A DNA stretch of 64,000 bases from Burkholderiales bacterium (GCA_021287185.1 JAJTAZ010000003.1:1-64000); one strand, 5' to 3'. Numbered from the stretch's first letter, positions 5,914-23,966 are shown. Notes: generated by a model not told the origin, from the letters alone. Program-made: numbers and translations.

Positions 5914-7338
5914 ATGATTGAGTTAAAAAGCAAACACCCTCGTATTTTGGTGATTGGCGACTTAATGATTGACCATTATCTATGGGGCAATTGCAATCGT
6001 ATTTCTCCTGAAGCGCCCGTTCAAGTGGTGGCCGTTAACAAAGAGAACAGCGTGCTGGGCGGCGCAGGTAATGTGGTTAACAACCTCAAACAATTGGGTG
6101 CGGTTGTGGACATCATGAGTGTTGTTGGGCAAGATGAACAAGCCCAAGAACTCACTCATATGCTGGAACAAGCGGGTATTGGTAGCATCCAACTAATCCA
6201 ACAAGCGGGGCGCACCACCTCAAAAAAATCACGGGTCATCGCTGCTCACCAACAGGTTCTGCGTTTTGACAAGGAAAGCACCGCTGAAATATCCGCTCCA
6301 GCACAAACAGAACTGCTGGCTAAGTTCAGTGCGCATATTGATTTCGTTGATATTATTGTGCTGTCCGATTATGGTAAAGGTGTGCTAACGGATTTTGTCA
6401 CTCGGGAAATCATTCGCATCGCACGCTCAAAAAACAAACGCGTCTTGGTCGATCCCAAAGGCAATGATTACAGCAAATATACAGGCGCATATTTACTCAC
6501 GCCCAACAAAAAAGAGGCTTCCGAAGCATCTAAAATCGATATTGTCGATAAAGACAGTTTGAATCAAGCCATTCAATATCTCAAAGACACATGTGCGCTG
6601 GATGTCTCATTGATTACCTTGAGCGAAGAAGGCATCGCCTGCTTGGATCAAGATTTGCAAATTTATCCCACTGTTGCACGGGATGTATTTGATGTCACGG
6701 GTGCGGGTGACACAGTCATTGCCGCTTTGGCATTTGCATTGGGTGCAAACTATTCCATTGAGCAAGCAATAGTGTTCTCAAATTTAGCAGCAGGCGTGGT
6801 TGTGGGTAAATTGGGTAGCGCGACCGCAACCTTGGATGAAATTATCGCCTACGAACAATCACTCAAACAAGTCAGCGGCTCGCTGTGCATTAAGACTTGG
6901 GACGAGATTGCTGTAATTGCACGCGATTTAAAACGGCGCGGACAGAAAATTGTGTTTACCAATGGGTGTTTTGATTTACTACACACGGGTCATGCACGTT
7001 ATTTGGAACAAGCACGCGAATTTGGTGACGTGCTGATCGTGGGCGTCAATAGTGATGCCAGCGTTTCTCGACTGAAAGGTCCCAGCCGCCCAATCAACTC
7101 AGAAGACGATCGCGCGTACATTTTGGCATCGCTCAAATCGGTGGATTACACGGTTATCTTCCATGAGGATACCCCTTATGAACTCATCAAACTGATACAA
7201 CCCAATGTGTTAGTCAAAGGTGGTGACTATCGCGGCAAAGAAGTTGTGGGACAAGATATTGCCAAAGAAGTCAAAATCGTTGATTTTGTCGCGGGAAAAA
7301 GCACCACGGGGACCATAGAAAAGATTGCCAAATCATGA
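5914..7338 (+). CDS. hldE: Bifunctional heptose-7-phosphate kinase / heptose-1-phosphate adenylyltransferase
   Basis: The enzyme phosphorylates D-glycero-D-manno-heptose 7-phosphate at C1 and later adenylates heptose 1-phosphate to ADP-heptose. The 474-residue protein has two domains. A PfkB-type kinase covers about residues 1-320, with the anion-hole motif DVTGAGD at 260-266. A cytidylyltransferase-fold domain covers about 340-474, with [11 protein letters not shown] and the HxGH signature at 357-360. The start abuts the hldD stop and the end overlaps gmhA by four bases, so the three are translationally linked. Many betaproteobacteria carry these two activities as separate HldA and HldC proteins, so the fusion is worth noting. 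Confidence 0.95.
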
Positions 7339-7913
7339 ATACACACATCGTTGAAATCATTCACGCCGAACTAACATCACACCGAGCGACCATTGAACAA
7401 GTCTTTGCTTCATCACAAGAACCATTGGCACGCGCCGCCGAGCTGATGGTGCAAACACTCAAAGAAGGTCATAAAATCCTTTTATGTGGCAACGGGGGCA
7501 GTGCGGCGGACGCTCAACACATTGCGGCCGAATTAACTGGACGCTACAAAACTGAACGCCGCGGATTACCTGCGATTGCATTGACCACAGATACATCGGC
7601 ACTCACGGCTATTGCCAATGATTTTGGTTACGAAAAAGTGTTTTCTCGTCAAGTCGAGGCCTTGGCCAATTCAGGCGACCTACTCATCGGTATCAGCACA
7701 AGTGGCAACAGCACCAACGTCTTACTGGCCCTTGAGCAGGCCAAAGCAATTGGCTGCACCACAATTGGTTTAACTGGAAATACGGGCGGCAAAATGAATG
7801 CACTGTGCGATATTAATCTGATTGCACCATCCAACAACACGCCACGTATTCAAGAAATGCACATTTTATTTGGCCATATCCTATGCCAAATTGTTGATGC
7901 ATCTTGGGTTTAA
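7335..7913 (+). CDS. gmhA: Sedoheptulose-7-phosphate isomerase
   Basis: GmhA converts sedoheptulose 7-phosphate to D-glycero-D-manno-heptose 7-phosphate, the first committed step to ADP-heptose. The 192-residue length is standard for this SIS-domain protein. The motif [12 protein letters not shown] is at residues 51-62, with the expected acidic residue at E66 and the C-terminal histidines H176 and H181 in MHILFGH. It starts within the last codons of hldE (ATGA overlap), so the enzymes are probably made together. With gmhB, hldD and hldE it completes the pathway inside 4 kb. Confidence 0.96.
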
Positions 7914-7922
7914 ATCCCGACA

Positions 7923-8990
7923 ATGCGCCCCATGAAAATCCTAATCATTATGCAGCGGTCCAACGGCGATGTTTTTTTAACATTACCGCTTATCCGAGCG
8001 CTGCAAGAGCAGCACCCAGATGCAAGCATCGATATGCTGGTGAACGATGATACTTTGGGCATTGCAAAAACACTACCCAATATTCATCAATTCATTGTAT
8101 TTAGTTACACTCGAAAAAAATCAGGCTTACGCGAACGATTGTCTCAAGAACGCGACATCATCCAAAAAATTTGGCGTAAATACGACTTGTCAATCAATCT
8201 AACTGCCAGCGACCGCAGTGTGCAATATGCAATTATGGCTTCAAAAAATTCTATTTCAGCGGTTGAGCAACAAAATAATAAATCGTGGTGGAAAAAACGC
8301 TTACTCAAGCACCACTACTTTATTGATACGCAACGACACACCGTTGAAAACAACTGCAAACCCTTACAATTTTTGGATTTGCCCTCAACCCCCATCAAAG
8401 TCATTCCAGAGGTTAACCCGCTTGCTCTTGAACAAATGCGCGCAAAGTTGGATACGCAGGGCATTACACAATTTTGGGTGATGCACGCAGGTGCTCAATA
8501 CGATTACAAAATTTACCCACAACAACTGCGCAATAAACTAATTCAAAAATTGACAGAACAGGGATTAACCTTGATTGCCACAGGCGGCAATACCCCGATT
8601 GACCAGCGAATCAAGACCGAATTACCACATCACCCCCAATGCCATAATTGGATTGGACAAACCAATTTATCAGAACTCATTGCTTTGATCAGTCTATCAC
8701 AAGGCTATATCGGTATGGACACCTTGGTGATGCACATCGCAGCCAGCCTCAACAAACCTGTATTCGCCATTTTTGGCCCCACACTTACATCGGTATGGTC
8801 GCCATGGAAAAACGAACCCACACAAAAAATACATGTGTTTCAAGCAGACATGCCTTGTGTACCCTGTGGCAAAGCGGGCTGCGACAACCATCACGGGAAA
8901 AGCCAATGTTTGGATCATATACCCCCTCGCACCATCGCACAGGAGATGAAACAATTCAATGACACACGTATGGGAGTTTTCACTCAATGA
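7923..8990 (+). CDS. Glycosyltransferase family 9, WaaQ-like heptosyltransferase
   Basis: This GT9 protein of about 352-355 residues would transfer heptose from ADP-heptose to the LPS core at the inner face of the inner membrane. The N-terminal MKILIIMQRSNGDV strand-loop is the family's start; translation may begin at the first ATG or three codons later. The acceptor and donor domain motif GYIGMDTLVMHIAASL and the cysteine-rich tail with VPCGKAGCD and SQCLDHI resemble heptosyltransferase III (WaaQ). It lies nine bases after gmhA and overlaps the next gene by four bases. The exact acceptor is not known. Confidence 0.8.
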   Translation: MRPMKILIIMQRSNGDVFLTLPLIRALQEQHPDASIDMLVNDDTLGIAKTLPNIHQFIVFSYTRKKSGLRERLSQERDIIQKIWRKYDLSINLTASDRSVQYAIMASKNSISAVEQQNNKSWWKKRLLKHHYFIDTQRHTVENNCKPLQFLDLPSTPIKVIPEVNPLALEQMRAKLDTQGITQFWVMHAGAQYDYKIYPQQLRNKLIQKLTEQGLTLIATGGNTPIDQRIKTELPHHPQCHNWIGQTNLSELIALISLSQGYIGMDTLVMHIAASLNKPVFAIFGPTLTSVWSPWKNEPTQKIHVFQADMPCVPCGKAGCDNHHGKSQCLDHIPPRTIAQEMKQFNDTRMGVFTQ

Positions 8991-9748
8991 ACCCTACCCC
9001 AACTCACCTGTCAATGCCTATTTCTGTCACTATTTTGACAAAAAATAGCAGTCGATATATCGAGGCTTGCTTGTCCAGTGTCGCCGATTTTGATGAGGTT
9101 GTGATACTCGACAATGGTTCAACCGACAATACGTTAGAGATTGCAGCACGCTTTGCCAATGTCAAAATATTCAAGTCGGAGTTTATTGGATTCGGTCCAC
9201 TGAAAAATTTAGCGCAAAGTCATACGAGCCACGAATGGGTATTGAGTATAGACAGCGATGAAGTGTTGACGCCCGAACTGTACCAAGCCATTAGAAAAAC
9301 CTCTTTAGATGACCAGTACATTTATGGATTTAATCGTCTAAACCATTTTAAAGGCAAACCCGTACGATGCTGCGGCTGGGACAAAGACACTGTGAAGCGT
9401 TTATACAATAAAACGCGTACCCAATTTGATAACGCACAGGTACACGAATCCCTACAAATGCAAGGATTGACGCTGAAACTCATTCAAGGCAACTTACTAC
9501 ACTACTCGTATGACTCAGTAGAAGAATTGATTGATAAATTGCAAAAATACTCAACCTTATGGGCAGAACAAAATTATCAAAAAAAAACCGCCAATATGTT
9601 TAAAGCGACTTACAAGTCAATATTTGCTTTTTTGAAGAACTATGTTTTACAAAAGGGCTTCTTGCATGGCAATGTTGGCATGTTAATTAGCGTTTGCAGC
9701 GCTTTTGGGGTTTTTGCTAAATATGCAAAATTAGCCGCTAAAAAATGA
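8987..9748 (+). CDS. GT2 glycosyltransferase, LgtF/WaaE (KdtX)-like LPS core enzyme
   Basis: A 253-residue GT-A fold enzyme of the LgtF/WaaE type, which typically adds glucose to heptose I of the LPS core. The sequence shows VTILTKNSSRYIEACL, then DNGSTDNT and the metal-binding SIDSDEV, followed by the VHESL motif seen in this subfamily. The C-terminal part has a hydrophobic stretch near GMLISVCSAFGVFA that could sit at the membrane. Its start overlaps the end of the GT9 gene (ATGA). The sugar and linkage are inferred from the subfamily only. Confidence 0.75.
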   Translation: MNPTPTHLSMPISVTILTKNSSRYIEACLSSVADFDEVVILDNGSTDNTLEIAARFANVKIFKSEFIGFGPLKNLAQSHTSHEWVLSIDSDEVLTPELYQAIRKTSLDDQYIYGFNRLNHFKGKPVRCCGWDKDTVKRLYNKTRTQFDNAQVHESLQMQGLTLKLIQGNLLHYSYDSVEELIDKLQKYSTLWAEQNYQKKTANMFKATYKSIFAFLKNYVLQKGFLHGNVGMLISVCSAFGVFAKYAKLAAKK

Positions 9749-9887
9749 CTTTTTGAATAAATGTAATGGTATTTTTACGCAGTTTAATTAACCACTGTCA
9801 ACTATACCAGCACCTATTTGTTACTTGCTACACACCCATTTACAGTTCTATCAAACGCTTTATTATACAAGAACAAAAAACCACATA

Positions 9888-10883
9888 ATGAATCAAGAAA
9901 TCAAAAAAATATCGGTTGTAATGTGCACATACAATGGGGCAAAGTATCTTGCTGAGCAATTGGATTCGATTCTTGCACAGAGTTATTCAAATATCGAAAT
10001 CATTGTGGTTGACGATTGCTCGACAGATAATACATTTGAAGTTCTTGAGAACTATTATCAATCCAAAGACTCACGAATTCAAGTTTTTCAGAACTCAAAA
10101 AACCTCGGTTTTGTTCAAAACTTTTCCAAAGCCATTTCATTGGCCACAGGCGATTACATTGCGTTGGCTGATCAAGACGATATTTGGAAACCTTACAAAC
10201 TCGAGAAATTCGCCAATGAAATCCAAAATCATTTACTCATATATTCAGATGCGATATTGATTGCCCCAGATGGACAATCACTTAATCGGGAACTCACTCG
10301 ACCCAATGACCATTTAGTCTCAGGGCATTGTAATCAAGCATTTTTGTTTAAAAACTGTGTATCAGGAAACACTCTGATGTTTAAAAGAGAGTTGCTACAA
10401 TACATTTTACCCATACCCAACGTCTCTTTTCACGATATTTGGATTGCTTTTATCGCTTCCTCACTCGGTACCATAGCCTATACAGAAGAAGCATTGGTTT
10501 ATTACCGACGCCATGAAAGTCAGGTCACTAACACTCAGAAAGAAAAGAAAAAGGGCTTGAGTTATTTACTACAAACGCCCATGCGCAAAATTGAGAAAAG
10601 CCGCCAAAAAACAAATGAGATTCAGCGCATTTTGAATGATTTTCTTGCGTACAGGGCATTTGCCGAAAAAATCAATGATCAAACACTGTTATCAATTCTC
10701 AACCCATTAATCAACCATTATCGTAATTACAACAATATATTTATCAATTATTCATTGAGGAAAATACTCGTCAAACACCGTGAAAATTTATTTGCAATTT
10801 GTCCTTCAAACAAAAGATTGCGTTACGCAAAAAAATACTCTCGAGGGCAAAAGTTCAACATTGCGGCAACGCTACTTAAATAA
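9888..10883 (+). CDS. GT2 glycosyltransferase, specificity unknown
   Basis: A 332-residue family 2 glycosyltransferase. The GT-A domain occupies about residues 8-230: SVVMCTYNGAKYLAEQL, VVDDCSTDNT, and the DXD-like ALADQDDIW. HDIWIAF and YYRRHESQ follow, both common in rhamnosyltransferase-like GT2 proteins. The remaining C-terminal third is lysine and asparagine rich with no motif I recognise. The start MNQEIKK is chosen over an upstream in-frame start because the family motif then begins at the usual distance. The gene is noticeably A/T-rich, consistent with a variable LPS gene. The substrate is unknown. Confidence 0.8.
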   Translation: MNQEIKKISVVMCTYNGAKYLAEQLDSILAQSYSNIEIIVVDDCSTDNTFEVLENYYQSKDSRIQVFQNSKNLGFVQNFSKAISLATGDYIALADQDDIWKPYKLEKFANEIQNHLLIYSDAILIAPDGQSLNRELTRPNDHLVSGHCNQAFLFKNCVSGNTLMFKRELLQYILPIPNVSFHDIWIAFIASSLGTIAYTEEALVYYRRHESQVTNTQKEKKKGLSYLLQTPMRKIEKSRQKTNEIQRILNDFLAYRAFAEKINDQTLLSILNPLINHYRNYNNIFINYSLRKILVKHRENLFAICPSNKRLRYAKKYSRGQKFNIAATLLK

Positions 10884-10901
10884 CCATTATCACAAAGTTA
10901 T

Positions 10902-11591
10902 TTAAGGTTGAAATAATCGTTTCAACTTCCGTGCACGCTTCTTAATGTACAAACTAAAACGGGGAAATCTTGGAGGAGGCTGATTATAAACTTTGCTCCA
11001 ATATTCTCGTAGAAATGAGTCCCTAACGTTATCAGCCGTTGCTTTAGGCTGGTGATTGCGACTATTCTTATTAACAAACACATGATATACCGCATTGTGG
11101 ACTGGTTTAGGAGTACTTCCATTGGCAATACACCTAATCCATAAATCCCAGTCCTCATACATTGGCAACTCTCGAAAACCACCTGCCCGCAAAAAATCTG
11201 CTCGTTTTACCAATGTACCAATTACCATAAAGTTGCCCTCTAAAATGGGATTCTGCGTACTGGTTTTTACGGATAACGATTTGACACCGTCTTCTATGGT
11301 CAACACGGATGGGTACAACAAAGGAGAAGGATGCGTGGTTTGGTCAATCATTTCACGCATCGCGCGAAGAAAATTCGAATCCAAAGCATCATCCGCATCT
11401 AAAAACAATAACCAATCTGCCGTTGATTGATGTGCCCCTGCATTTCTTGCCTGAGCCAACGTTTCGCCATGAATCAGATGAATCAAAGAGGCAGGAGACG
11501 TTTGTTGAAGCACTGATTTTTGTGCAATCAAGGCTTTCTCTTTCCAAGATTCGCACCCATAAGTGGCAATAATCACATCAATACCATGCAT
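10902..11591 (-). CDS. GT2 glycosyltransferase, specificity unknown
   Basis: A 229-residue GT2 protein with VDVIIATYG-type start, LAQARNAGA, the DXD-like FLDADDAL and YEDWDLWIR. The last motif is common in enzymes that use UDP- or dTDP-sugars in surface polysaccharide synthesis. The ATG at MHGIDVI is preferred to an in-frame TTG two codons earlier. The tail is strongly basic (KKRARKLKR), which could help membrane association. It lies on the opposite strand to its neighbours on the left and converges with the preceding GT2 gene with only 18 bases between stops. The substrate cannot be told from sequence. Confidence 0.8.
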   Translation of the reverse strand: MHGIDVIIATYGCESWKEKALIAQKSVLQQTSPASLIHLIHGETLAQARNAGAHQSTADWLLFLDADDALDSNFLRAMREMIDQTTHPSPLLYPSVLTIEDGVKSLSVKTSTQNPILEGNFMVIGTLVKRADFLRAGGFRELPMYEDWDLWIRCIANGSTPKPVHNAVYHVFVNKNSRNHQPKATADNVRDSFLREYWSKVYNQPPPRFPRFSLYIKKRARKLKRLFQP

Positions 11592-11772
11592 TCCCAAACC
11601 CCGACAAATTATTAGACCGCTTTCATAATAAACGATGTTACTTCAGTACAAAAAACCAACAACGAAGTTATCAACTCAAACCGTTCTATCGCAAAACAAT
11701 TTAATTTTTTATGTACAACTTGAATGATACAAGCAATGATTCAATTGTCCATTCTGCTTAGTTACTACGACT

Positions 11773-12438
11773 TTAACGAAATATTTTTTGACCTAACCTA
11801 CGCGCTTTGTAAACTGCTTTGTCCATTAACGTACAATGGTGCAATATCAATTGATTGTTTCGATGCAGTTCAGACATAATTTCTTTTTCCGCTTCCCAAG
11901 GATGCCCCCACCAACCTTTGAATGAAAATCCAACCACGTGCTTCTCATATCCTTTGTAACGAGCATCATTTAAAAAAGACCAAACCACCAAAAACCCTGA
12001 ACTTGGACAAATAAAAGGCCGATGTGTTCGAGACTGAATCAATCTAAAACATGATTGATTCAATTCATCAGACAAACGCACCACTTCTTTACCATCTCGC
12101 ACAATTTCTTCTTCATACCACTGAGAAACATCCATTGCCTCTTCTTTTGGATATTGATCCCTTAGCGGATTGTGTAACAGGTGGTTTTGATGGGTTCTCT
12201 GACTGCGAGCAAATAAGATCGTGTGCGCCTTTGAGTAAAATGCATTGGATCGGATGTCTTGTAACAATGCGTGCCCCACTGCTCCCGTATTAACTATCGA
12301 CAAACAAGTGGTTTTTATATGGTCAGGCGTAATTTTATACTGTTTATTATTGAATCGGACGACGACTTCCGCCTCCTCTAATAAACATGCGTGATTGGCC
12401 GCGGGCTCTGAATTACCTATGATGAGAACTTTTTTCAT
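11773..12438 (-). CDS. GT29-like (sialyltransferase-fold) putative glycosyltransferase
   Basis: The 221-residue product carries pieces that recall the sialylmotifs of GT29 glycosyltransferases. IGNSEPA and VVVRFNN (R28, F29, N30) match the pattern of motif L. PSSGFLVVWSFL (residues 145-156) followed by VVGFSF recalls motif S. GWWGHPWEAE, with H179 and E184, may match the small C-terminal motif. Related bacterial proteins are often misnamed urease accessory proteins. No signal peptide or membrane segment is visible, so it would act in the cytoplasm. Its place among LPS glycosyltransferases supports a sugar-transfer role, but donor and acceptor are unknown and no sialic acid synthesis gene is in view. 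Confidence 0.55.
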   Translation of the reverse strand: MKKVLIIGNSEPAANHACLLEEAEVVVRFNNKQYKITPDHIKTTCLSIVNTGAVGHALLQDIRSNAFYSKAHTILFARSQRTHQNHLLHNPLRDQYPKEEAMDVSQWYEEEIVRDGKEVVRLSDELNQSCFRLIQSRTHRPFICPSSGFLVVWSFLNDARYKGYEKHVVGFSFKGWWGHPWEAEKEIMSELHRNNQLILHHCTLMDKAVYKARRLGQKIFR

Positions 12439-12614
12439 TGCAATTTAATATGGAAATGTTTGGTCCACCGACCATTACATTAAGTTTTTTGATTATCGCA
12501 TAACATATACCCTTATCCAAAATAATTACAATATTTTGATTCAATGATGAATCGTTCAAATACACCAGCTTTTCAGGTAAGATGTGCAAATCGTCCAACA
12601 AAGAAAGTGATTAA

Positions 12615-13439
12615 ATGCCCAGCCCCAATTACGCCCTAACTTTCGCCTGTTACAACTCGGTTCAATACACCAAACTCTGTATTGACAGTATGATTAGGCA
12701 TGGTACACCACTGAATCGATTGGTGGTGGTGGACAATGGCTCGACTGATGAGACGCGAGAGTATTTACAAACCCTTCCGTTGGGGGGGCGCATTTTTAAC
12801 CAAGCCAACTTAGGATGTGGTGTGGCGTGGAATCAGGGTGCGCTTGCGCTACAAGCCGATTGGACGATTGTGATGAACAACGATGTTTTGGTGTCCGCAC
12901 ATTGGATAGAAAATTTATTACATACTGCCGAGACCTTAGGGCTTAAAGTGATTTCACCTGCCCTGATAGAAGGTGCATTGGATTATGATTTTGAACAGTT
13001 TTCGTTGGACGCATCCAAGCGTATGAACCAAGCTCATCGAATCGGAGCGCGTCACGCAGTATGTTTGGCTGTGCATAAATCTGTGTGGCTGGATGTGGGC
13101 TATTTCCAACCCGTACCGAAACTATTGGGCTATGAAGATACTTTATTTTTTCACGAACTTAGCAAGGCCAAGATTCCAATGGGTATGACAGGGGCTTCGT
13201 GGTTGCATCATTACGGCTCCATTACTCAAACGGCGATGAAACAAGAACGCGGGTTGTCACAAAAACAAGGTTTAGGCTATCGATACAATTACCGTTTACT
13301 CGACCAAAGTTGGCTGGAACGCAAACTCGCCAAACTGGAGCGCAATCGTCAAAACAAGACTTGGAGCAAGGCTGAGGTGGCACAATACGGTCAGTCTATC
13401 CATGGCTTGCGCAAAAATGGTTCGTTTGAATGGATTTAA
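12615..13439 (+). CDS. GT2 glycosyltransferase, specificity unknown
   Basis: A 274-residue GT2 protein. The nucleotide-binding half shows FACYNSVQYTKLCIDSM, VVDNGSTDETREYL and the metal site VMNNDVLV; the acceptor half has GYEDTLFFHEL and a histidine pair in SWLHHYGS. This layout is typical of rhamnosyl- and galactosyltransferases of O-antigen or outer core. The C-terminal 60 residues are basic and glutamine rich. It is transcribed divergently from the GT29-like gene and is followed after 38 bases by another GT2 gene. The substrate is not predicted. Confidence 0.82.
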   Translation: MPSPNYALTFACYNSVQYTKLCIDSMIRHGTPLNRLVVVDNGSTDETREYLQTLPLGGRIFNQANLGCGVAWNQGALALQADWTIVMNNDVLVSAHWIENLLHTAETLGLKVISPALIEGALDYDFEQFSLDASKRMNQAHRIGARHAVCLAVHKSVWLDVGYFQPVPKLLGYEDTLFFHELSKAKIPMGMTGASWLHHYGSITQTAMKQERGLSQKQGLGYRYNYRLLDQSWLERKLAKLERNRQNKTWSKAEVAQYGQSIHGLRKNGSFEWI

Positions 13440-13477
13440 ATGCTTTTGATACACACGACACAAATTAAAACAAGATT

Positions 13478-14347
13478 ATGAAAATATCAGCATTTACTTT
13501 TCTCAAGAATGGCTCTTTATTGGGCTACCCATTTATTCAATCGATTCAATCTGTATTGCCTATAGTGGATGAATTTGTGGTTGCCTTAGGGCCAAGCGTT
13601 GATGACACTGAGGCACAATTGTTGGCATTAAATGAGCCAAAATTACGGGTCATCAAAACTCAATGGTGCGATCTCATGCGCGAAAAAGGCTATGTCTATG
13701 GTCAACAAAAAATGGTTGCTCAGTTTAACTGTACGGGTGATTGGGCGTTTTATATTGAAGCCGATGAAGTCGTGCATGAGAATGACTTAGAAACCATCAA
13801 AGCCGCCTGTGAAACCCATCTAAATAACCCCAATGTCGAAGCCTTGGTATTTGATTATCTGCATTTTTACGGTAATAAAAATACCTATTTGCATTCGCCA
13901 GGTTGGTACAAAAGAGCGCCTCGCATCATCAAGACCAATGTGCGCAGTTACGCACCCGATGGGTTGTTTTGGTTGGTGTTAGAAAAAAACAAAGTAGGAC
14001 GTTATCCCAAAGCCGCGCTCATCGGCGCGCGCATGTATCACTATGGTTGGGTACGCAGCGAGGCACAAATGAATGTCAAAAGTAGCAATGTCAATCAGTA
14101 TTGGGATAAAAAACCGGAACAATTTGACTACACTCAAATTGATGCCAGCATCCTCCGCGAGTTTACCCAAACTCATCCTAAAGTCATGCACGATTGGCTG
14201 CCTGAAGCCACAGGTATTTTCCAAGCCAATCCTGAGCATCGCCTAACGCGCAAAGAAAAACGCCACCGCATCAAAGCCAAATTGGAACGTATCTTTCATC
14301 TGGATTTGAGTAAAAAACATTTTCGTCTGATTAACCCAAACAAATGA
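13478..14347 (+). CDS. GT2-type glycosyltransferase, specificity unknown
   Basis: A 289-residue GT-A fold protein whose start MKISAFTFLKNGSLLGYPF resembles GT2 proteins of LPS loci. The DXD equivalent is FYIEADEVVHE, and LGPSVDDTE replaces the usual DxGSxD motif, so it belongs to a divergent branch. The C-terminus (about 245-289) is rich in lysine, arginine and histidine. Its last four bases overlap the start of waaF, so it is coexpressed with a core heptosyltransferase. A role in outer core assembly is inferred only from this linkage. Confidence 0.72.
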   Translation: MKISAFTFLKNGSLLGYPFIQSIQSVLPIVDEFVVALGPSVDDTEAQLLALNEPKLRVIKTQWCDLMREKGYVYGQQKMVAQFNCTGDWAFYIEADEVVHENDLETIKAACETHLNNPNVEALVFDYLHFYGNKNTYLHSPGWYKRAPRIIKTNVRSYAPDGLFWLVLEKNKVGRYPKAALIGARMYHYGWVRSEAQMNVKSSNVNQYWDKKPEQFDYTQIDASILREFTQTHPKVMHDWLPEATGIFQANPEHRLTRKEKRHRIKAKLERIFHLDLSKKHFRLINPNK

Positions 14348-15306
14348 GTAAAATATTTATCGAGTTACCGACATGGTTGGGCGATGGCGTGATGGCCACG
14401 CCTGCTATTGAAAACCTATTGAAAATTTATCCCGATGTCCAGTTGACGGTGTTTGGCTCATTTGTCGCAACTGAGTTGTTCAAACACCATCCGAAAATTG
14501 AGCGAATTATCGTTGATACGAGTAAGCAATCAAGCAATCGCTTACTCCATTTATACAAGACAGCTCGTGCTTTGGGGAAATTTGATTTGGCATTGTCATT
14601 TAGAAGCAGTTTTGCCTCTAAGTGGTTATTATTTTGCTTATCTGCTCATAAAAAAGCGCTTTATGGCCGCACTCGAGATAACTGTGAGAATGGTATTCAT
14701 CAAGTCATACGCTACAACAACTTTGTCAACTGTGCGCTGGGTCAAAATTTAGAACCTGCAGATTTAACCCTGTTTACCAAACCCCTATCACCGTCAACCC
14801 ACCGCAAACCGCTACTGGGGCTCAACCCTGGCAGCACCTATGGTAGCGCCAAACGCTGGTATCCCAATGAGTTTGCACAAGTGGCGATAGTACTGTCTCA
14901 GAATTTTGATATTGTTATTTTGGGTGGCCCGAAAGAGAAAGACATCGCTCATGACATTGAACAATTACTCATCGAACAGAACGTTGTGAATGTCATCAAT
15001 CGCGCAGGCACCATGAGTATTGAGCAGTTGATTGAACAAATCGCTCAATTAGACATACTGCTCACCAATGACAGCGGCCCCATGCACGTTGCAGCGGCTT
15101 TCAAAATCAAAACTGTGGCGATTTTTGGTCCGACCAACCACATCGAAACCCACCAATGGCACAACCCAAATGAGTTTATTCTACGCAAACCCACAGAATG
15201 CGCGCCCTGCATGCAACGTGAGTGCCCACTCAAGCATCATCGTTGTATGAAAGAGATCCATGCCGAAGATGTGCTATTGGCACTCGCTAACAAAGGTTGG
15301 ATTTAA
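14344..15306 (+). CDS. waaF: ADP-heptose:LPS heptosyltransferase II
   Basis: WaaF adds the second L-glycero-D-manno-heptose to heptose I of the LPS inner core on the cytoplasmic face of the inner membrane. The 320-residue GT9 protein has ELPTWLGDGVMATPAI at its start, LNPGSTYGSAKRWY in the middle, LLTNDSGPMHVAAAF in the donor site, and the WaaF-type cysteine tail CAPCMQRECPLKHHRCM. It overlaps the upstream GT2 gene by four bases. Its last 33 bases also encode, on the other strand, the end of waaC, an unusual tail-to-tail overlap. Confidence 0.92.
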   Translation: MSKIFIELPTWLGDGVMATPAIENLLKIYPDVQLTVFGSFVATELFKHHPKIERIIVDTSKQSSNRLLHLYKTARALGKFDLALSFRSSFASKWLLFCLSAHKKALYGRTRDNCENGIHQVIRYNNFVNCALGQNLEPADLTLFTKPLSPSTHRKPLLGLNPGSTYGSAKRWYPNEFAQVAIVLSQNFDIVILGGPKEKDIAHDIEQLLIEQNVVNVINRAGTMSIEQLIEQIAQLDILLTNDSGPMHVAAAFKIKTVAIFGPTNHIETHQWHNPNEFILRKPTECAPCMQRECPLKHHRCMKEIHAEDVLLALANKGWI

Positions 15307-16332
15307 ATCTTTGTTGATTGATTTTAAAGCCAATAAATCTTTGGCCTGCTCCAAGATTGCCTGCACGGGTATTTTTCGTATCGAAAAATCACTGGCATCC
15401 AAACGCAAAGGATCTACTTTTGACGAGGACTTGACCACACGATTGATGTCACTGATCCAAGTATTTCGGTGCTCTGGCGTGTTACCAAATATCGTAATGG
15501 ACGGCACATTCAAAGCCCACGCACAATGCGTCGGCCCCGTATCACCACCGATGACCAAATCTGCCTGTGCCAACAATGCTTTCAAATCGTTTAAACTTAA
15601 TTTAGGACTGATGGTGGTCTGAGGTGCGTGCTGTGCAACGTATTGTGCCGCCGCCAACTCTTGTTCATTGCCCCAAACAAGTATGCAATGCGCACCTATA
15701 TCTCGATTCAAAGCAATCGCTAATTCAACAAACCGTTCAGCGGGATAAACTTTATTCGGACGCGAAGCACCCAAAACCAAAATGACGTTTTTTTGCCCCT
15801 GCGCCATCGGCGTATTTTGAAGCGATAGGGGTTGGTAATGTAAAAAAGGAACTTTGTTGACCAAGTCACCTTTCGCAACCCGAATCCCCAAGGGCTCACA
15901 CAATACTTTGACGTTACGCCAAATCACATTTTCAGCATAATCAATATCAACCGTTTGGCTATACAGATTTGCGGCGAATTTTTCACGAATGGAGTTTTTC
16001 GAAAATCCAATCGTATGTCGCCCCAAAAGTTTCGCCACAATCGCTGATTTGAGCAGGCCCTGTGCATCAATCACGTAATCATAATTTTGAGCCGCATAAG
16101 TTTTGAGTTGACGAATTTGTGCGAACACTTGGCGTTTATTGTGCTTGAGTGCTTTTAAATTCACCGTCAGAATGCGATTGATATCGGGGTTATCCGCCAA
16201 AATCCCCATCAAGCCCTGTTCGACAACCCAGTCAATCACCACATCGGGACGGCGCGCCTTAATCAGTTGCAAAGCAACCATGGCATGAACAATATCACCC
16301 ATAGCAGAGAGTTTAACGATGGCGATTTTCAT
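15274..16332 (-). CDS. waaC: ADP-heptose:LPS heptosyltransferase I
   Basis: WaaC adds the first heptose to Kdo2-lipid A. The 352-residue GT9 protein starts MKIAIVKLSAMGDIVHAM, the classical WaaC N-terminus, and has VIDAQGLLKSAI, VLGASRPNKVYP and the donor-binding LVIGGDTGPTHCAWAL. It follows msbA by 25 bases on the same strand, so msbA-waaC form an operon coupling lipid A flipping with core assembly. The C-terminal end overlaps the end of waaF on the opposite strand by 33 bases. Confidence 0.94.
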   Translation of the reverse strand: MKIAIVKLSAMGDIVHAMVALQLIKARRPDVVIDWVVEQGLMGILADNPDINRILTVNLKALKHNKRQVFAQIRQLKTYAAQNYDYVIDAQGLLKSAIVAKLLGRHTIGFSKNSIREKFAANLYSQTVDIDYAENVIWRNVKVLCEPLGIRVAKGDLVNKVPFLHYQPLSLQNTPMAQGQKNVILVLGASRPNKVYPAERFVELAIALNRDIGAHCILVWGNEQELAAAQYVAQHAPQTTISPKLSLNDLKALLAQADLVIGGDTGPTHCAWALNVPSITIFGNTPEHRNTWISDINRVVKSSSKVDPLRLDASDFSIRKIPVQAILEQAKDLLALKSINKDLNPTFVSECQ

Positions 16333-16357: not shown

Positions 16358-18205
16358 TTAAACCAATGAAGGCAACATACTCAAATGCGCATACAAACCA
16401 CCCCGCGCCAATAACTCATCGTGCGTACCTTGCTCGGCGATTTCGCCATCGTTCATCACCACGATGCGATCGGCCTGCTGCACAGTACTCAGTCGATGGG
16501 CAATCATAATGCTGGTTCGCCCCTGCATGAGGTTGTCCAAGGCTTTTTGCACTGCGCGCTCTGACTCATTGTCCAGCGCACTGGTCGCCTCGTCCAATAT
16601 TAAAATAGGGGCATCTTTAAGAATGGCGCGCGCAATCGACAAACGCTGACGCTGTCCACCTGAGAGTTGGTTGCCATTATTACCCACCAACATATCCCAG
16701 CCTTGCGGGTTTTCTTGAACAAACTCCCACAAGTTCGCCGCTTTGAGTGCCGCCTCGACTTGCTCAGGCGTGGCATTTTCACGGCCATATGCAACGTTGT
16801 TATACAGCGTGTCATTAAATAAAAACACATCCTGCGAAACCAAAGCAATTTGACTGCGCAAATTGTATAAATCAATGTCTGAGATTCGATGACCATCCAG
16901 ATAAATCTCGCCTGCAGTCGGCTCAACAAAACGTGGCAATAAATTAATCAGTGAGGACTTACCACTGCCCGAACGTCCAACCAAGGCGAGTTTCTCACCT
17001 GCCCGCACCTCTAACGTAAAATTATTCAGTGCTTTGCGTGACATGCCTTCGTAAGTTAAATCCAAATGTTTAAACGCAATATTGCCACGCGCACGATCTA
17101 ATTTTACTGTCCCCGAATTCACCTCGGGTGGCGCATCTAAAAATTCATACACCGAATCTGCAGAGATAAACATAAACTGCATCGGAATACTCAAATTGGA
17201 TAAATTTTTCAGCGGCGCGAGCATCTGCATCATCGCCACGATAAATGCCATAAATTGACCAACTGTAGTCACGCCATTTTGACTTTGCCACAGCGCGACA
17301 AACACCACAATCGCCAACGCAAAAGAGGCCACCAACTCACTAAAAGGCGACTTGGCGGAGGATGCTTGAGCCAACTTTTTTTGAAATCGAAGAATCGCAC
17401 CATTTTCAGACTCAAATCGCTCCTCAGCATGGGTTTCGCCACCGTACAGTTTAACCACTTTGTGACCATCATAGGTCTCATTGATCACATGCGCCAATCC
17501 CTTCATCTTTTCCATCGAGTCTTGTTGCAACGAGCGCAATTTATTTCGATAGTAACGAGACAGCCAATTGAGTACAGGAAACATCAACAGAACAACCAAA
17601 GACAACTGCCAGTTTAAATAAATCAGCACAATCGTCAAACCCAATACGGTCAACGAATCACGGGTCAAAGTGATGAATACATTGATGGCATTGCTGATTG
17701 CATTATTCGCGTCCAGTAGAAAGCGATTACTGGTAAAGGCACTCGGGTGGGTCAGCTGATATTTAGATGGGAGCAAAAGCATCTTTTGAAACATGACTGC
17801 ACGCAACTCTTTCAAGACAACCGCACCCACCCACGACAACAGATAACTGCTGAAGTAACGACAGAACCCTCGAAACATCACCAAACCGACTAGGAACAAC
17901 GGTACCATCCACACCTTTGAAGCAGAACCCCAAATCCAATAAGTTACCAATGCACGTAAGTGTGAAACCTTATCGACGAAACTGACTCCATCCATTTTGG
18001 GAGGGCTTAACTGAGTAGCAGAAAACCCCTGATTAATTAGCGGCGAGATAAATGCCGCCAAATAGCTCTCAGTGAAAGCCACGCCCGCTGTAGCCAGTAG
18101 CGCAATCAAAATACGAACTTTATAGCGTTTAATATAAGTCATTAAACGCATAAAATTTTTGGTGTCTTGTTCCTTGAAAACCCCAAGAAATAACTGGTTC
18201 AACAT
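16358..18205 (-). CDS. msbA: Lipid A export ABC transporter, permease-ATPase (MsbA type)
   Basis: MsbA is a homodimeric half-transporter that flips core-lipid A across the inner membrane. The 615-residue protein has an N-terminal six-helix exporter domain (about residues 20-340) and a C-terminal nucleotide-binding domain. The latter has Walker A GRSGSGKSS, signature LSGGQRQR, Walker B ILILDEATSALD and the switch histidine in IMIAHRLS. ATG at MLNQLFLG is preferred because an AGGGA ribosome binding site precedes it; the 27-residue upstream extension does not look like the family. It lies between the large glycosyltransferase gene and waaC. Confidence 0.93.
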   Translation of the reverse strand: MLNQLFLGVFKEQDTKNFMRLMTYIKRYKVRILIALLATAGVAFTESYLAAFISPLINQGFSATQLSPPKMDGVSFVDKVSHLRALVTYWIWGSASKVWMVPLFLVGLVMFRGFCRYFSSYLLSWVGAVVLKELRAVMFQKMLLLPSKYQLTHPSAFTSNRFLLDANNAISNAINVFITLTRDSLTVLGLTIVLIYLNWQLSLVVLLMFPVLNWLSRYYRNKLRSLQQDSMEKMKGLAHVINETYDGHKVVKLYGGETHAEERFESENGAILRFQKKLAQASSAKSPFSELVASFALAIVVFVALWQSQNGVTTVGQFMAFIVAMMQMLAPLKNLSNLSIPMQFMFISADSVYEFLDAPPEVNSGTVKLDRARGNIAFKHLDLTYEGMSRKALNNFTLEVRAGEKLALVGRSGSGKSSLINLLPRFVEPTAGEIYLDGHRISDIDLYNLRSQIALVSQDVFLFNDTLYNNVAYGRENATPEQVEAALKAANLWEFVQENPQGWDMLVGNNGNQLSGGQRQRLSIARAILKDAPILILDEATSALDNESERAVQKALDNLMQGRTSIMIAHRLSTVQQADRIVVMNDGEIAEQGTHDELLARGGLYAHLSMLPSLV

Positions 18206-18299
18206 ATGAGTTTCCCTAGTGATAACATCAAGCAAGTGTCCTAAAAGTAACAATTTAAATTTCAATTGTAGAAACAACGTTATCACATATCAATTTTTA

Positions 18300-21200
18300 T
18301 CATCTCAAAAAAAATCGCCCACACCTACCGTGCATTTGGTCCGTCAAAAGTGCTTTTCTTTTTTCTATGACTGTAGTATCCATTTTTTTAAATTTCCCCC
18401 AATTCTCATCAGATTTAATTTGATTTATCAACTCTGTTTCTGCCTCAATCAAAGAGTTAGCAAAACGGTAACCAAAATACTCGTAAAACATTTTTTCTTC
18501 TTGAACACTGGTATCTAGAGTTTTTGTAGCATCATACTCGTGTGAGTGAATGACAACTGCATCCTCAGCATATGCCACAGTCAATCCAGATGAAATTACC
18601 TCACTAGCCCAGAGTTGATCCTCACCCCACTCTACTTCGGGGTACGGAATATATTTTAAAACTTTTTTTCTAACAGCCGAATTGTTATCTGAGAAGAAAC
18701 AACGCAGTAATTTACCTTCAATTGTACTCGGGCTTGGTGTATTTTCACCCATATCCCAACGTCTGAGTTTTAATTGCTTACTCATGTGATTGAAGTGATT
18801 AGAAATATCTCGTTGAATAAACTCATCGTGTTCAGAACGAGCAACGTGACGACCAAAAACACCTGCAACTTTTTCGTCGAAATCAAAAGGTGCTATCAGA
18901 TTGCGTAGCCAATATCTGTTCTCAGGCAAAGCATCTTGCGTCGTATACACCACATATTCACATTCGCATTGTTCAGCCACATACTTCCGTGTCCTACCGT
19001 GTTGAAACTCAGTCTTTCTAATTTCTATTAACCTAACATTCTCAATGCTTGATTTCTTAAGAAAGTCAACTGAGCCATCACTGGATTCGCTATCAATAAC
19101 AACAATTTCAAAAGGCCAAGGCGTATCCTGCTCCAAGACTGATTCAATCAGCCTACGTAAACTATTTTCTCCTGGGTTATAGGTAGGTATAACAACCGAT
19201 GCCTTATAATTCACCTGAGTATCTCTTGAGTTTAAACTCTCAAATTGATATGACTCAAATCCCTTTTCAGATAAACGCTCAATTAATGCACTTTCAATTT
19301 GTCTTGCCGAATCTTCCCAATTTGTGCTCAGGGCCAATTTTTTAGCCTCTTGTGCTAAGTCATTTCGGTAATTTTGGTCACGCACTAGTTTTTCTATAGC
19401 ATCTGCCACACTCATAACATCAGGCTTAGCAAAACATAAAGCAGTCTCAGGGAATACGGCCCGCGTTGACTCTACATCTAATTCAACCACAGGAAGTCCA
19501 CATGCCATCATCTCAAGTGGAATTAATGAGTAATTGGTAGCCGAGAAAACGAGTCCAATATCAACTCGATTATACAAATCAGCCAATTCTTTCGGAGACA
19601 AAACCCCTAAATGTTTATATCTGAAATTGAAATTATTGGCCACATCCTTTTCTTGACCGAATAAAAAGGCTTCAAACCCAACCCCCCTCTCGTGCAGCTC
19701 TTGTAGCGCCGCCAATCCCAAATCAACGACTCGTCTTTCTGTATGCATTCGAGAATAAAAAGCAATTTTAACGACATCATGTTTTTGTTTTATATTAACT
19801 TGTGGTTGATAAACTGTTTGATCTGCACAAAGATTCCAAGAGCGCGCCCACATCCCCTTGTTTTCTGCCATTTGACGTAGCCAATTCCCAGCACATAAAG
19901 CGGAAAAACCAAACTCATAAGTATTATCCGCGAGCAAATAATTCGTGCCCATCGGATAAAATTGCGCTTCATTGTCTTGAATAAAATAAAACCGTTCCTT
20001 GAATCGGCTCATTGCTGCGACTGGATAAGCAGTAAACGAGTCAGTCGCAATCACTACATCTCCAGAAATGTAACTAACGTCGACAGGTAAATGTTCAATA
20101 TAAGTATTCCGTATATCCGCATACCATTCTTGAATTTCTGCTTTACGCTTAGCCACACTAATAGTGGCATCTGCATTTTGCAACCAAACAGTTTGTCGAT
20201 GACCAAACTGTTCTAAGAATTTAATTATGCGAAATATTGTTTGATGACCGCCCGCACCACGAACAAAATCTGGAATAACCCAATGAATATTCATTGAACT
20301 TCTATTAAAACTCCCATAAAAATTTTGGAGCGGCATGATTGGATTTTTTGAAATATTGATATTCCTCTGCCATCTTTTTGAATCCATTGAAAACAAAGCA
20401 CTTAACTCCATCCACCCCCAATAATCTTTTCCCCAATAACTACTCACTTCGTAGCCAGACAACTTAGGAAAAAGGGATAAACACCTCTCCATGACATGTG
20501 CAACCGTCCCATCTATCTGACCATGCTCATCGTCATAGTCTGTCAGTGACGGCAAAAACGGTAAAAGTTTTTCGATAACTTCTGTTTTTATCCAACACAT
20601 AGAACCAGCAGGATAGTCTATATTGATATACTGCCAATCGCTGTTTATTTTTTTTAAAAACGCATCAATCTGGTTCTTATTATGATCGTTTGAGACCAAA
20701 TGTCTAATTCGACTGAAATTAACAGGGTAAAGCAACCCATAGTTATTCGCCTCAAACTCACCAACAACTTTTTCAACTAAATCAACACTTCCTAGTGTTG
20801 CCTCCAATAAGTAACGTCGCCACGCATCACCAAAATCAATATGTAGGCTCCGTTTAGTATGGACATGGCAAAGATACTTATACCGAGTAAACAAATCTGC
20901 ACAAGCTACAAACAGTGGGGCAATGTCACGACCTTTATTCTCAACCAAACGAATATCAAAATTTGAAATATTATTTGCACTCAAGTACTCTAATATTTCT
21001 CGTTTATCATCAGAATCGCAGACTGTAATACACAAGAAAACTCCGCTCATACAAACTGGCTTTATTATTTGAAAATCATCAAAAAACACCTCTTTATAAA
21101 ACACATGGAAATGAATCGCAAGGTTATGCGCCATTTGCGACATATCTATTTTTTGTTTTAAAAAAACAGCACCTTTTACTTGAGATGCGCTTAACGTGCT

Positions 21201-22418
21201 TATTGATTCTTCCACACACTCAGGAGACCCAAAGCGAATATTAGATTGATGGTGTGTTTTCTTAATTGATGATAAATCCTTAAGAGTGGCTTTGACCATT
21301 TTAAGCCCACTCTCTTTATTAATCCGTCTTAGGGACTGGTACGCCTTTCCAATACTGCCTTTTTCAATCACTAAATGTCTAAAGCCTCTGCGCAATTTAT
21401 TGGCAGAACTGATGGCTTGCTCGGTTTTGATTAATGGTTTAACCAAACGAATCGCCCACAATTTTTTATATTTACGGTGCTGGTGTGTTTGTGCACCTAT
21501 TTGATTTGACTGCTCATGTAGTTGTTGTGATTGTGCGTTTATTTGTTGCGACTGGATATTTATTTGTTGTGACTGTTCATGTAGTTGTTTCTCTTTAATT
21601 ATCAGTTGATTGTTTTGTTCCGAAACTTTCAATTCAGACTCTGTCATTTTTCGCTCAGCCTCTGAAATTTTATGCTTAAGAATTGCAATTTCATTCTTAA
21701 ACACTAGGAGTGCCTCAGTATCAGCATCCAACCATTTTAAATTTTCCATACGAACACGCTGATCTTCGCTGTGTTCTTCCAAATTCAAAATTTCGCCTAA
21801 TGGTAAGCCATTCAAAAAACCATTTGTGTACTTAATATCCGTGTATAACATTCTTTTAGGATATTTTGTTATGTAATGTTCATTTTTAATACAAACAGCG
21901 ACAAAATCATTCCACCAATTTTCAATTTCACCACCGATTTGATTACTTACATACGATTCCAGCAGTCCAGAATTAAAATTATTGTGTCGAGCCCACGTGA
22001 CTAAAGCTTGTCCACTATCTGGATAAAATCGCCAACAATCAACAGGATAGCGATGAAACATACCATTACTCGGAACATTTAAATAAAAAAGTCCATGTGG
22101 CTTTAAAATTCGCATGATTTCAAGATAAACAATCCAAAACATTTCCGAATGTTCAAAACATGAACTTGAGACCACTATATCAACCGAGTTGTCCTCAAAA
22201 GGAAGTTCATACGGCGATGTAATAACCAAGTCCACTCCCTTACCATCAACAAAGTCAACACCAATATATTCAAACTCTTGAGGACAAAACTGCCTAATAG
22301 AGCCATTTACATCTTGACTTCCAATCTCAACCACTCGTACAGACTCATCACCACCTAAAAAATGAGGTGTATATGTATCAAAAAATAATTTTCCATTGTT
22401 TAATGCTGATGGGTGCAT
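18300..22418 (-). CDS. Multidomain methyltransferase / coiled-coil / RgpF-like / double glycosyltransferase
   Basis: A single 1372-residue reading frame joins five parts. Residues about 20-170 form a class I SAM methyltransferase (VVEIGSQDVNGS at 29-40; SSCFEHSEMFW). Residues 235-320 are a coiled coil with tandem heptads. About 430-680 resembles the rhamnan synthesis protein RgpF (ENKGRDIAPLF, HVHTKRSLH). About 710-1050 resembles WsaF-type rhamnosyltransferases of the GT4 class (HWVIPDFVRGAGGHQ, NYSLIPLEMMACGLPVV). About 1072-1300 is GT2 (SVVIPTYNPGENSL, GEDQLWASEV). No signal peptide or membrane helix is visible, so it is probably cytoplasmic. The gene is A/T-rich compared with its flanks. 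It lies between waaA and msbA and probably builds, and may cap by methylation, a surface glycan. The sugar is unknown; rhamnose is a guess from the family names. Confidence 0.85.
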   Translation of the reverse strand: MHPSALNNGKLFFDTYTPHFLGGDESVRVVEIGSQDVNGSIRQFCPQEFEYIGVDFVDGKGVDLVITSPYELPFEDNSVDIVVSSSCFEHSEMFWIVYLEIMRILKPHGLFYLNVPSNGMFHRYPVDCWRFYPDSGQALVTWARHNNFNSGLLESYVSNQIGGEIENWWNDFVAVCIKNEHYITKYPKRMLYTDIKYTNGFLNGLPLGEILNLEEHSEDQRVRMENLKWLDADTEALLVFKNEIAILKHKISEAERKMTESELKVSEQNNQLIIKEKQLHEQSQQINIQSQQINAQSQQLHEQSNQIGAQTHQHRKYKKLWAIRLVKPLIKTEQAISSANKLRRGFRHLVIEKGSIGKAYQSLRRINKESGLKMVKATLKDLSSIKKTHHQSNIRFGSPECVEESISTLSASQVKGAVFLKQKIDMSQMAHNLAIHFHVFYKEVFFDDFQIIKPVCMSGVFLCITVCDSDDKREILEYLSANNISNFDIRLVENKGRDIAPLFVACADLFTRYKYLCHVHTKRSLHIDFGDAWRRYLLEATLGSVDLVEKVVGEFEANNYGLLYPVNFSRIRHLVSNDHNKNQIDAFLKKINSDWQYINIDYPAGSMCWIKTEVIEKLLPFLPSLTDYDDEHGQIDGTVAHVMERCLSLFPKLSGYEVSSYWGKDYWGWMELSALFSMDSKRWQRNINISKNPIMPLQNFYGSFNRSSMNIHWVIPDFVRGAGGHQTIFRIIKFLEQFGHRQTVWLQNADATISVAKRKAEIQEWYADIRNTYIEHLPVDVSYISGDVVIATDSFTAYPVAAMSRFKERFYFIQDNEAQFYPMGTNYLLADNTYEFGFSALCAGNWLRQMAENKGMWARSWNLCADQTVYQPQVNIKQKHDVVKIAFYSRMHTERRVVDLGLAALQELHERGVGFEAFLFGQEKDVANNFNFRYKHLGVLSPKELADLYNRVDIGLVFSATNYSLIPLEMMACGLPVVELDVESTRAVFPETALCFAKPDVMSVADAIEKLVRDQNYRNDLAQEAKKLALSTNWEDSARQIESALIERLSEKGFESYQFESLNSRDTQVNYKASVVIPTYNPGENSLRRLIESVLEQDTPWPFEIVVIDSESSDGSVDFLKKSSIENVRLIEIRKTEFQHGRTRKYVAEQCECEYVVYTTQDALPENRYWLRNLIAPFDFDEKVAGVFGRHVARSEHDEFIQRDISNHFNHMSKQLKLRRWDMGENTPSPSTIEGKLLRCFFSDNNSAVRKKVLKYIPYPEVEWGEDQLWASEVISSGLTVAYAEDAVVIHSHEYDATKTLDTSVQEEKMFYEYFGYRFANSLIEAETELINQIKSDENWGKFKKMDTTVIEKRKALLTDQMHGRCGRFFLR
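21483..21587 (-). repeat. Five tandem 21-base units encoding coiled-coil heptads
   Basis: Five in-frame units of 21 bases encode residues 278-312 as heptads QLHEQSQ, QINIQSQ, QINAQSQ, QLHEQSN and QIGAQTH. At DNA level the units share a TTGTTGTGACTG-like core and differ at a few positions. The unit length of exactly seven codons keeps coiled-coil register, so gain or loss of a unit would lengthen or shorten the rod without a frameshift. Confidence 0.85.
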
Positions 22419-22616: not shown

Positions 22617-23966
22617 TTATTCATTAAAGAGCAATATACCAAGTTTTTCAACCGCTCCACATTGTTGGTGTATGAAGGTCCGTATCCGAACTGGTATATG
22701 AGCTACGTGTAATTGGGATTGCTGAGCATTTTCTAATGCTATAAATGAGCTTTGTACCTGCCACAGCACACCACTACCCAGCGCATCGGCACCGATTTTT
22801 TCAAAGTTATAAATACTCGTACCCACCCACACAGGTTTACCCAACGCCATTGGCTCAAGGAAGTTTTGCCCGCCATACGGCAACCATGTCCCGCCCATGA
22901 GTACAACATCGGCGATTGCATAGTAGGTAAACATTTCGCCCATGGTGTCGCCGAGCACCATGTCTGCTTGGGCGAGCGCGTTGATTTGTTGTGTGATGGG
23001 CTGCATGTCCAATTCGCTTTTGCGCACCACGTTTTTCCCCGTGTTTTTCAGCAGCGTCATGACTTCATCAAATCGCTGTGGGTGGCGCGGCACAATCCAC
23101 CATTGGGTTCGTGGCTGCGGTTTTTCTATCTGTGCGTGTGTTCGCTCAAATTCCTCAATCGCTTCAAGCCACAATTGCTCCTCCCCCTCACGGCTGGAGG
23201 CAAGCATGACAACACGGGTGTCTGTCAATAAACGCTTGATGCGTTCACCTTCGGCAACTTGTTCTGTGGGAACGTGCATATCAAATTTCAAATTACCTGT
23301 CACGGTCAGTTGCGCATCGACCACACCAATTGCTTGGTAGCGTTGCGCATCTGTTTCACTCTGTGCGCACACATGGGTAAACCCTGCATATGCGCCACCC
23401 ATGAGTGCTTTCCATTTGAGGGTTTGTTTGAGGGTTTTTTCGGACATACGACCATTGATGAGACTGGCTGGGATGTTGCGCTGGACACATTGCGCCATCA
23501 AATTTGGCCACACTTCGGTTTCCATAATCCACACATCGGTTGGCGCAAATGTTTTAAAAAATCGATTGAGCAGCGGGTTTAAATCATACGGCGCATAAAC
23601 TTGCGTCATACGTCCGTCTTGTAAATACGACGCAAATAATTCTTGACCCGAAGCGCGCCCCGTGGGTGTGGTGTGGGTCAATACAATGTGCGCATCGGTG
23701 TTTTGTGCAAAAAATGCGTGTACCAGCGGTGCGGTTGCGCGGGTTTCTCCCAGTGAAACCGCATGCAACCAAATCCGTCGTTTTTGTGGCGCAATCCGCG
23801 ATTGTCGATAGCAGGCAAATCGCTCTGCCCAATGCTGTCGGTATTCGGGTTGTTTGCGCCCGCGCCACAATAAATACAACGGCACAATGGGTAACAGCAC
23901 ATATAAGCACAGCGCATACAGGCGTCTCACCCAAGGATGGGGCTGGTGTGGGATGTAATTTGACAT
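22617..23966 (-). CDS. waaA: 3-deoxy-D-manno-octulosonic acid transferase (Kdo transferase)
   Basis: WaaA adds Kdo from CMP-Kdo to lipid IVA, starting the LPS core. The 449-residue GT30 protein has an N-terminal membrane anchor (YALCLYVLLPIVPLYLLW), the catalytic glutamate region HAVSLGETRA, METEVWPNLM, ASSREGEE, and the donor site GGQNFLEPMALGKPV. The length fits the family. It is transcribed towards the large glycosyltransferase gene, 198 bases away, and has no close upstream partner, so it probably has its own promoter. Confidence 0.95.
   Translation of the reverse strand: MSNYIPHQPHPWVRRLYALCLYVLLPIVPLYLLWRGRKQPEYRQHWAERFACYRQSRIAPQKRRIWLHAVSLGETRATAPLVHAFFAQNTDAHIVLTHTTPTGRASGQELFASYLQDGRMTQVYAPYDLNPLLNRFFKTFAPTDVWIMETEVWPNLMAQCVQRNIPASLINGRMSEKTLKQTLKWKALMGGAYAGFTHVCAQSETDAQRYQAIGVVDAQLTVTGNLKFDMHVPTEQVAEGERIKRLLTDTRVVMLASSREGEEQLWLEAIEEFERTHAQIEKPQPRTQWWIVPRHPQRFDEVMTLLKNTGKNVVRKSELDMQPITQQINALAQADMVLGDTMGEMFTYYAIADVVLMGGTWLPYGGQNFLEPMALGKPVWVGTSIYNFEKIGADALGSGVLWQVQSSFIALENAQQSQLHVAHIPVRIRTFIHQQCGAVEKLGILLFNE

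Follow-up and report, generated by a model that had tools for sequence, protein, structure and literature searches.

A methyltransferase, a coiled coil and three glycosyltransferase modules predicted in one protein encoded beside msbA in a Burkholderiales bacterium

The fusion protein and its modules

A 64,000-nucleotide stretch of DNA from a Burkholderiales bacterium (GCA_021287185.1 JAJTAZ010000003.1:1-64000; the window) carries on its minus strand a gene for a 1372-residue protein in which a methyltransferase (MT), a coiled coil and three glycosyltransferase (GT) modules follow one another in a single chain. A preliminary description had read the order from N- to C-terminus as MT, coil, RgpF, WsaF-like GT4 and GT2, and Pfam matches, a coil score, a structural model and conserved residues confirm it. 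The features of the gene are as follows:

18300..22418, minus: whole gene for the 1372-residue fusion protein, one unbroken frame
21753..22418, minus: class I SAM methyltransferase domain, residues 1-222, with the EIGSQDVNG loop, GVDF and HRYPVDCWRFYPD (Pfam, alignments, model and structure match)
21462..21731, minus: coiled coil, residues 230-319 (COILS-like score, AlphaFold2 helix, relatives)
21498..21589, minus: in-frame 21-bp tandem repeat, 4.4 copies, within the coil, encoding QSQQIN-type heptads (repeat analysis)
21426..21458, minus: WAIRLVKPLIK, by eye a degenerate SxSW[RK]xTxPLR (comparison with relatives)
20463..21161, minus: RgpF-type glycosyltransferase module, residues 420-652 (Pfam, alignment)
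19275..20321, minus: WsaF-like GT4 module, residues 700-1048 (Pfam, 2x0d match, alignment)
18429..19223, minus: GT2 module, residues 1066-1330 (Pfam, alignment)

The frame opens with an ATG, and AGAGG just 5' of it is a likely ribosome-binding site. As M1 and H2 are invariant across 55 sequences of the N-terminal domain, the start codon is correctly called. Promoter and terminator scans near the gene gave chance-level matches only. In alignments with relatives, the conserved residues are intact in each of the four catalytic domains.

The MT domain matches Methyltransf_11 at residues 62-112 (E 1.6e-11), and the three motifs listed above are intact. An AlphaFold2 model of residues 1-440, built from 55 sequences, shows a confident MT domain followed by a single long helix. 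Using VIA-align 2, we found that the MT model matches class I SAM methyltransferases, the top match having a Z of 16.2 and an rmsd of 2.4 over 167 aligned residues; among them is CgnL 7pd7 (Z 13.9), which the MT of Klebsiella pneumoniae O7 ORF6 is reported to resemble (PMC11231755). The N-terminal domain is a methyltransferase, not a Kdo transferase, by Pfam and structure match, and the SAM-fold check suggested in the preliminary description came out favourably. That description had also seen no kinase. No kinase family is matched by Pfam in the 1372-residue protein, and the MT, which ends near residue 215, runs directly into a helix starting at 218, leaving no room for a kinase or a carbohydrate-binding module (CBM) between MT and coil. 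This is no obstacle to capping, because O5-type WbdD caps by methyl alone (PMC11231755).

C-terminal to the coil, RgpF matches residues 420-652 (E 2.1e-37) with the second half of its profile only (259-499 of 503), WsaF_C matches residues 884-1008 (E 5.9e-13; WsaF_N is sub-threshold), with the WsaF_C/GT4 matches together covering 884-1014, and Glycos_transf_2 matches residues 1074-1219 (E 2.5e-22). The closest solved structure is WsaF itself (2x0d). In the alignments, NKGRD, HTK and PAGSM are intact in the RgpF module; the WsaF-like module retains its QDNE and NYSLIPLEMMACG stretches, and the GT2 module retains D1109, TQDA and GED. Structure prediction, which the preliminary description had proposed for the full chain, yielded the MT and the helix from residues 1-440, but the model of residues 400-1372 was poor (mean pLDDT 53), unusable, and left out of the fold search. 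As a separate observation, the first half of the RgpF profile matches a protein of a sister species (L028 4726-5622) and the second half matches window 20463-21161; the profile therefore seems to span two separable modules.

The three GT modules also occur together elsewhere. In Rhizobium lusitanum, RgpF-WsaF-GT2 forms a single 969-residue protein without MT or coil (40% identity over 430-1354). The GT2 and WsaF pair is found as adjacent genes near ABC exporters in six loci (L088, L129, L190, L192, L194 and L026), sometimes with RgpF too. In L192 and L026 the full RgpF, WsaF and GT2 set sits by a short Wzm/Wzt-type transporter without a cap-binding domain; in L088, GT2 and WsaF come after wzm, wzt and a WsaE-like MT-GT2-GT2 protein; and in L129, MT, GT2, WsaF, wzm and wzt are separate neighbouring genes. 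Such groupings support a joint role of the modules.

We found no full-length homologue in ~930 other genomes; the sets scanned, which share some members, comprised 100 relatives, ~398 phylum-wide and ~399 order-wide genomes, and a direct scan of genome contigs with the whole protein found none. Analogous MT-coil fusions do occur, in Pseudomonas and at locus L078, while the exact five-module set was absent from the ~930 genomes sampled.

The coiled coil and the relatives of the methyltransferase

The COILS-like score, computed with a hand-entered matrix, stays above 1.3 throughout residues 230-319 and peaks at 1.64. Whole-protein shuffles peaked at 1.44, whereas the 95% point for shuffles of the Q/E/K-rich region was 1.60, so that the heptad signal exceeds composition only modestly. 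The AlphaFold2 model places one helix over residues 218-352, confident to about 310. Within the coil DNA, the 21-bp repeat (4.4 copies, 70% match) has a unit of exactly one heptad. In-frame coil repeats are also present in relatives (33 bp × 4.1 at 96% in L148, 63 bp × 4.6 at 96% in L168 and 21 bp × 2.6 in L153), giving units of 7, 11 or 21 residues, and the near-identical copies in L148 and L168 indicate recent duplication. Duplicating such units would extend the coil rod without breaking it, and the near-perfect 33-bp and 63-bp repeats of L148 and L168 suggest that the coil of the window protein could be adjusted in length by in-frame gain or loss of 21-bp heptad repeats. In the open-licence literature, we found no treatment of tandem repeats together with WbdD and coils. 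Several fused relatives, whose coils are roughly 55-110 residues long, carry SxSW[RK]xTxPLR or a near form C-terminal to the coil; WAIRLVKPLIK in the window protein may be a degenerate version of it, read by eye.

A scan of 84,980 species genomes with the MT gave 417 relatives, and the counts that follow are from the 80 closest. Most of these are stand-alone proteins of ~230 residues, with ~70 of the 80 lacking both a long coil and an ABC exporter. Together with L078, which came from a separate search, eight loci have long-tailed MT genes: Pseudomonas L153 (MT-coil-WbsX-RgpF), L154 and L164 (both MT-coil-RgpF-HAD), L078 (MT-coil-GT4-GT2-GT4), Ramlibacter L157, Variovorax L148 (MT-coil only), L168 and L135. 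A Wzm/Wzt-like transporter lies nearby in 7/7 cases with a tail of at least 100 residues vs 2/73 with a short tail (Fisher p = 1e-8), a figure to be read as an association and not a rate, since the 80 were picked by similarity and include related species. In an unconstrained MT tree, the ABC-linked fused MTs form a clade (support 96/97) that excludes the window protein. The likelihood rose when the window MT was constrained to group with these (p-AU 0.585), and a separate origin of the window fusion is thus unsupported. The MT tree neither shows nor rejects a common origin.

The core locus and transport genes in the genome

The fusion gene sits among genes for the lipid A-core:

22617..23966, minus: waaA (Kdo transferase), upstream neighbour
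16358..18286, minus: msbA, lipid A-core flippase, next gene downstream; its real start is probably 18205 (sister-genome comparison)
15274..16332, minus: waaC-type heptosyltransferase I

Heptosyltransferase and glycosyltransferase genes, hldE and gmhA (the last two named from sequence) belong to the same locus, in which msbA is the sole transporter found. In the sister species the flanks are 84-89% identical, but the slot is occupied by genes for a nucleotide-sugar pathway and for a DUF4422-GT8 protein. The fusion gene has a GC of 0.377 and a GC3 of 0.31 vs 0.45-0.50 in waaA, msbA and waaC, and this low base composition is uniform over all of its modules. It looks imported, the low GC being as expected for an imported cargo gene.

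The preliminary description had seen no wzm/wzt export genes. This holds for the window, and the genome has no Wzt_C cap-binding domain, but contig C6 has a Wzm/Wzt-type pair lacking that domain, followed by genes for a GalU-like protein, an acyltransferase, Glf and a GT2, and a KpsMTE-like capsule exporter lies on contig C11. The Wzy_C domain of WaaL/Wzy was not detected in the genome, vs a match in 17/21 genomes of the relatives set, nor was PF01943 Wzx. A WaaL/Wzy-type ligase was likewise not found in a 70%-complete genus mate, and the sister species gave a marginal match only. PF13425 was uninformative on the ligase, as it matched none of the control genomes. Contig C29 carries rmlBDAC plus a KpsC-like gene.

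Two side observations concern these regions. The core locus is nearly all different between the two congeneric species: window 4143-16332 contains hldE, gmhA, a GmhB-like and an epimerase gene, heptosyltransferase genes and several GT2 genes, vs RgpF, GT2 and a GT25 gene in L028 3917-8263. Also in the core locus is a 221-residue ORF (11773-12438, minus) that, at the thresholds applied, matches nothing in Pfam or NCBIfam. The C6 stretch (L188 6932-13558) probably encodes a polysaccharide that contains galactofuranose, and no O-antigen ligase was detected in the genome.

Proposed function and comparison with known systems

Leaving its acceptor aside, the protein very probably belongs to the class of WsaE, O7 ORF6 and WbbB. 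From these, single chains that unite capping, a rod and sugar transfer are already known, and the self-contained polymerase with a built-in ruler that the preliminary description suggested has precedents in WbbB of K. pneumoniae O12 and in O7 ORF6 (PMC11231755); what is new is the five-module set, with WsaF in the chain, sited in the core locus of a genome without a detected ligase or cap-reading transporter. WsaE of Geobacillus stearothermophilus joins an MT and two GTs in one chain for an S-layer glycan (PMC2943079), in a system with WsaF as partner, a dTDP-rhamnose glycan and a methyl cap (PMC2943079, PMC3898925). Like it, the window protein has an N-terminal MT and at least two GT modules in one chain, with a WsaF-type GT4, and the genome has dTDP-rhamnose supply genes (rmlB, rmlD, rmlA and rmlC), though outside the fusion locus. 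Unlike that system, WsaF is within the same chain, an RgpF module is added and no wzm/wzt lies beside the gene. The likeness is one of described architecture, and the WsaE-like protein of L088 has no BLAST match to the window MT.

O7 ORF6 shares with the window protein a terminator MT, a coil and C-terminal GT modules, with rhamnosyltransferase there, in a single chain (PMC11231755); in the window protein no kinase or CBM separates the MT from the coil, and the GT modules are RgpF, GT4 and GT2 in place of GT2 and GT2. WbbB of K. pneumoniae O12 and Raoultella terrigena likewise has its capping enzyme, its ruler coil and its polymerase modules on one polypeptide (PMC11231755), but its cap domain is a Kdo transferase. 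In WbdD of E. coli O9a and K. pneumoniae O5, an N-terminal MT is likewise followed by a coil, whereas the polymerase WbdA is separate, the O9a/O3 form has a kinase and, unlike in the window genome, wzm/wzt with the cap-binding Wzt_C domain are linked. WbdD-type terminators also have a C-terminal amphipathic helix and a site that recruits the polymerase, whose modules belong to the chain itself in the window protein. The comparison with WbdD in the preliminary description was right in kind: MT relatives fused to coils are encoded beside wzm/wzt in other bacteria. The WbdD coil puts the cap enzyme ~20 nm off the membrane (PMC5082667), and the 69-90 coil residues of the window protein would span ~10-14 nm. 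Homologous in the MT (51-55% identity) are L153, L154, L164 and L078, which share the coil and an SxSW[RK]xTxPLR-type motif, and in three cases RgpF; they differ in having a HAD hydrolase, WbsX or GTs and in genes that directly follow wzm-wzt. The window protein also resembles a lipooligosaccharide outer-core enzyme in being encoded among core genes of a genome without a detected O-antigen ligase.

We tentatively favour, while granting it somewhat less than an even chance, a single-chain glycan assembly enzyme that builds a capped rhamnose-type chain on lipid A-core, to be flipped by MsbA. The three C-terminal GT modules would extend the chain at the inner membrane, probably with rhamnose. The coil would keep the N-terminal MT away from short chains and so limit length, as in WbdD, O7 ORF6 and WbbB (PMC11231755, PMC5082667), and the MT would methylate the chain end as a cap once the chain reaches it. 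The acceptor would be lipid A-core, and the finished lipooligosaccharide would leave by MsbA. Polymerisation and the ruler role are proposed by analogy. Rhamnose as the sugar, methylation as the cap and the coil as length limiter are inferred, and the lipid A-core acceptor with MsbA export is the least certain part. That acceptor is favoured because the gene adjoins msbA and no ligase was detected; the neighbours waaA, msbA and waaC, the other glycan genes in the same slot of the sister species and the lack of detected Wzy_C, Wzt_C and PF01943 Wzx in the genome support the route. The further step, that a ruler-type terminator-polymerase has moved from the ABC O-antigen to the lipooligosaccharide pathway, giving a capped, length-limited, MsbA-exported chain on lipid A-core that needs neither a ligase nor a polymerase or exporter of its own, is unlikely.

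Several points weigh against this reading. The activity of each part is predicted; a ligase could have been missed, as the assembly is 97.7% complete; and the adjacency to msbA may be chance, given the low GC and imported look of the gene and the ~94 bp gap to the likely msbA start. A Wzm/Wzt-type pair is present in the genome, and the long-tailed MT relatives adjoin ABC exporters, which argues for an undecaprenyl pyrophosphate (Und-PP)-linked, ABC-exported product. Family habit and a candidate transporter would thus favour a WbdD/WsaE-type terminator-polymerase whose chain, built on Und-PP and capped, is exported by the C6 pair or the capsule exporter. The C6 pair and its sugar genes, the similarly short transporter beside the RgpF, WsaF and GT2 sets of L192 and L026, and the ability of a CBM-less K. 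pneumoniae transporter, in an engineered strain, to export a glycan foreign to it (PMC11231755) are in keeping with this. We nonetheless rate it somewhat below the lipid A-core route: the genome and its genus mate yielded no WaaL/Wzy-type ligase and the sister only a marginal match, Wzt_C is lacking, and the fusion gene lies in a core locus, away from the transporter.

Core oligosaccharides are short, and the product could instead be a short fixed oligosaccharide with an O-methyl sugar, made without polymerisation or ruler by an enzyme that the coil merely oligomerises. The R. lusitanum protein indicates that the GT unit needs no ruler, the ~70 stand-alone MTs are in line with this, and WsaE methylation is independent of chain length in vitro (PMC2943079). 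Against it, the MT-coil junction, coil length and post-coil motif resemble those of the ABC-linked relatives, and coils of this class serve as rulers in O9a and O12 (PMC11231755); on balance, we consider a fixed oligosaccharide unlikely. A fusion by chance or an assembly artefact, with modules that do not work together, would fit the lack of a full-length homologue but is highly improbable, with a frame open over 4.1 kb, conserved residues intact in four catalytic domains, uniformly low base composition across the modules and analogous fusions in other bacteria.

Assembly on lipid A-core would mean that a single gene stands in for most of the O-antigen machinery and that the length of the surface sugar is fixed before MsbA. 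If the chain is ABC-exported, the five-module format would join the WsaE, O7 ORF6 and WbbB series and provide a compact enzyme for making glycans in vitro. Under either export route, the tandem repeats of the coil bear on whether bacteria tune glycan length through repeat slippage in a protein ruler. The repeats of two other MT-coil genes, at L148 8834-8967 and L168 7949-8236, are candidates for a ruler length tuned in this way.

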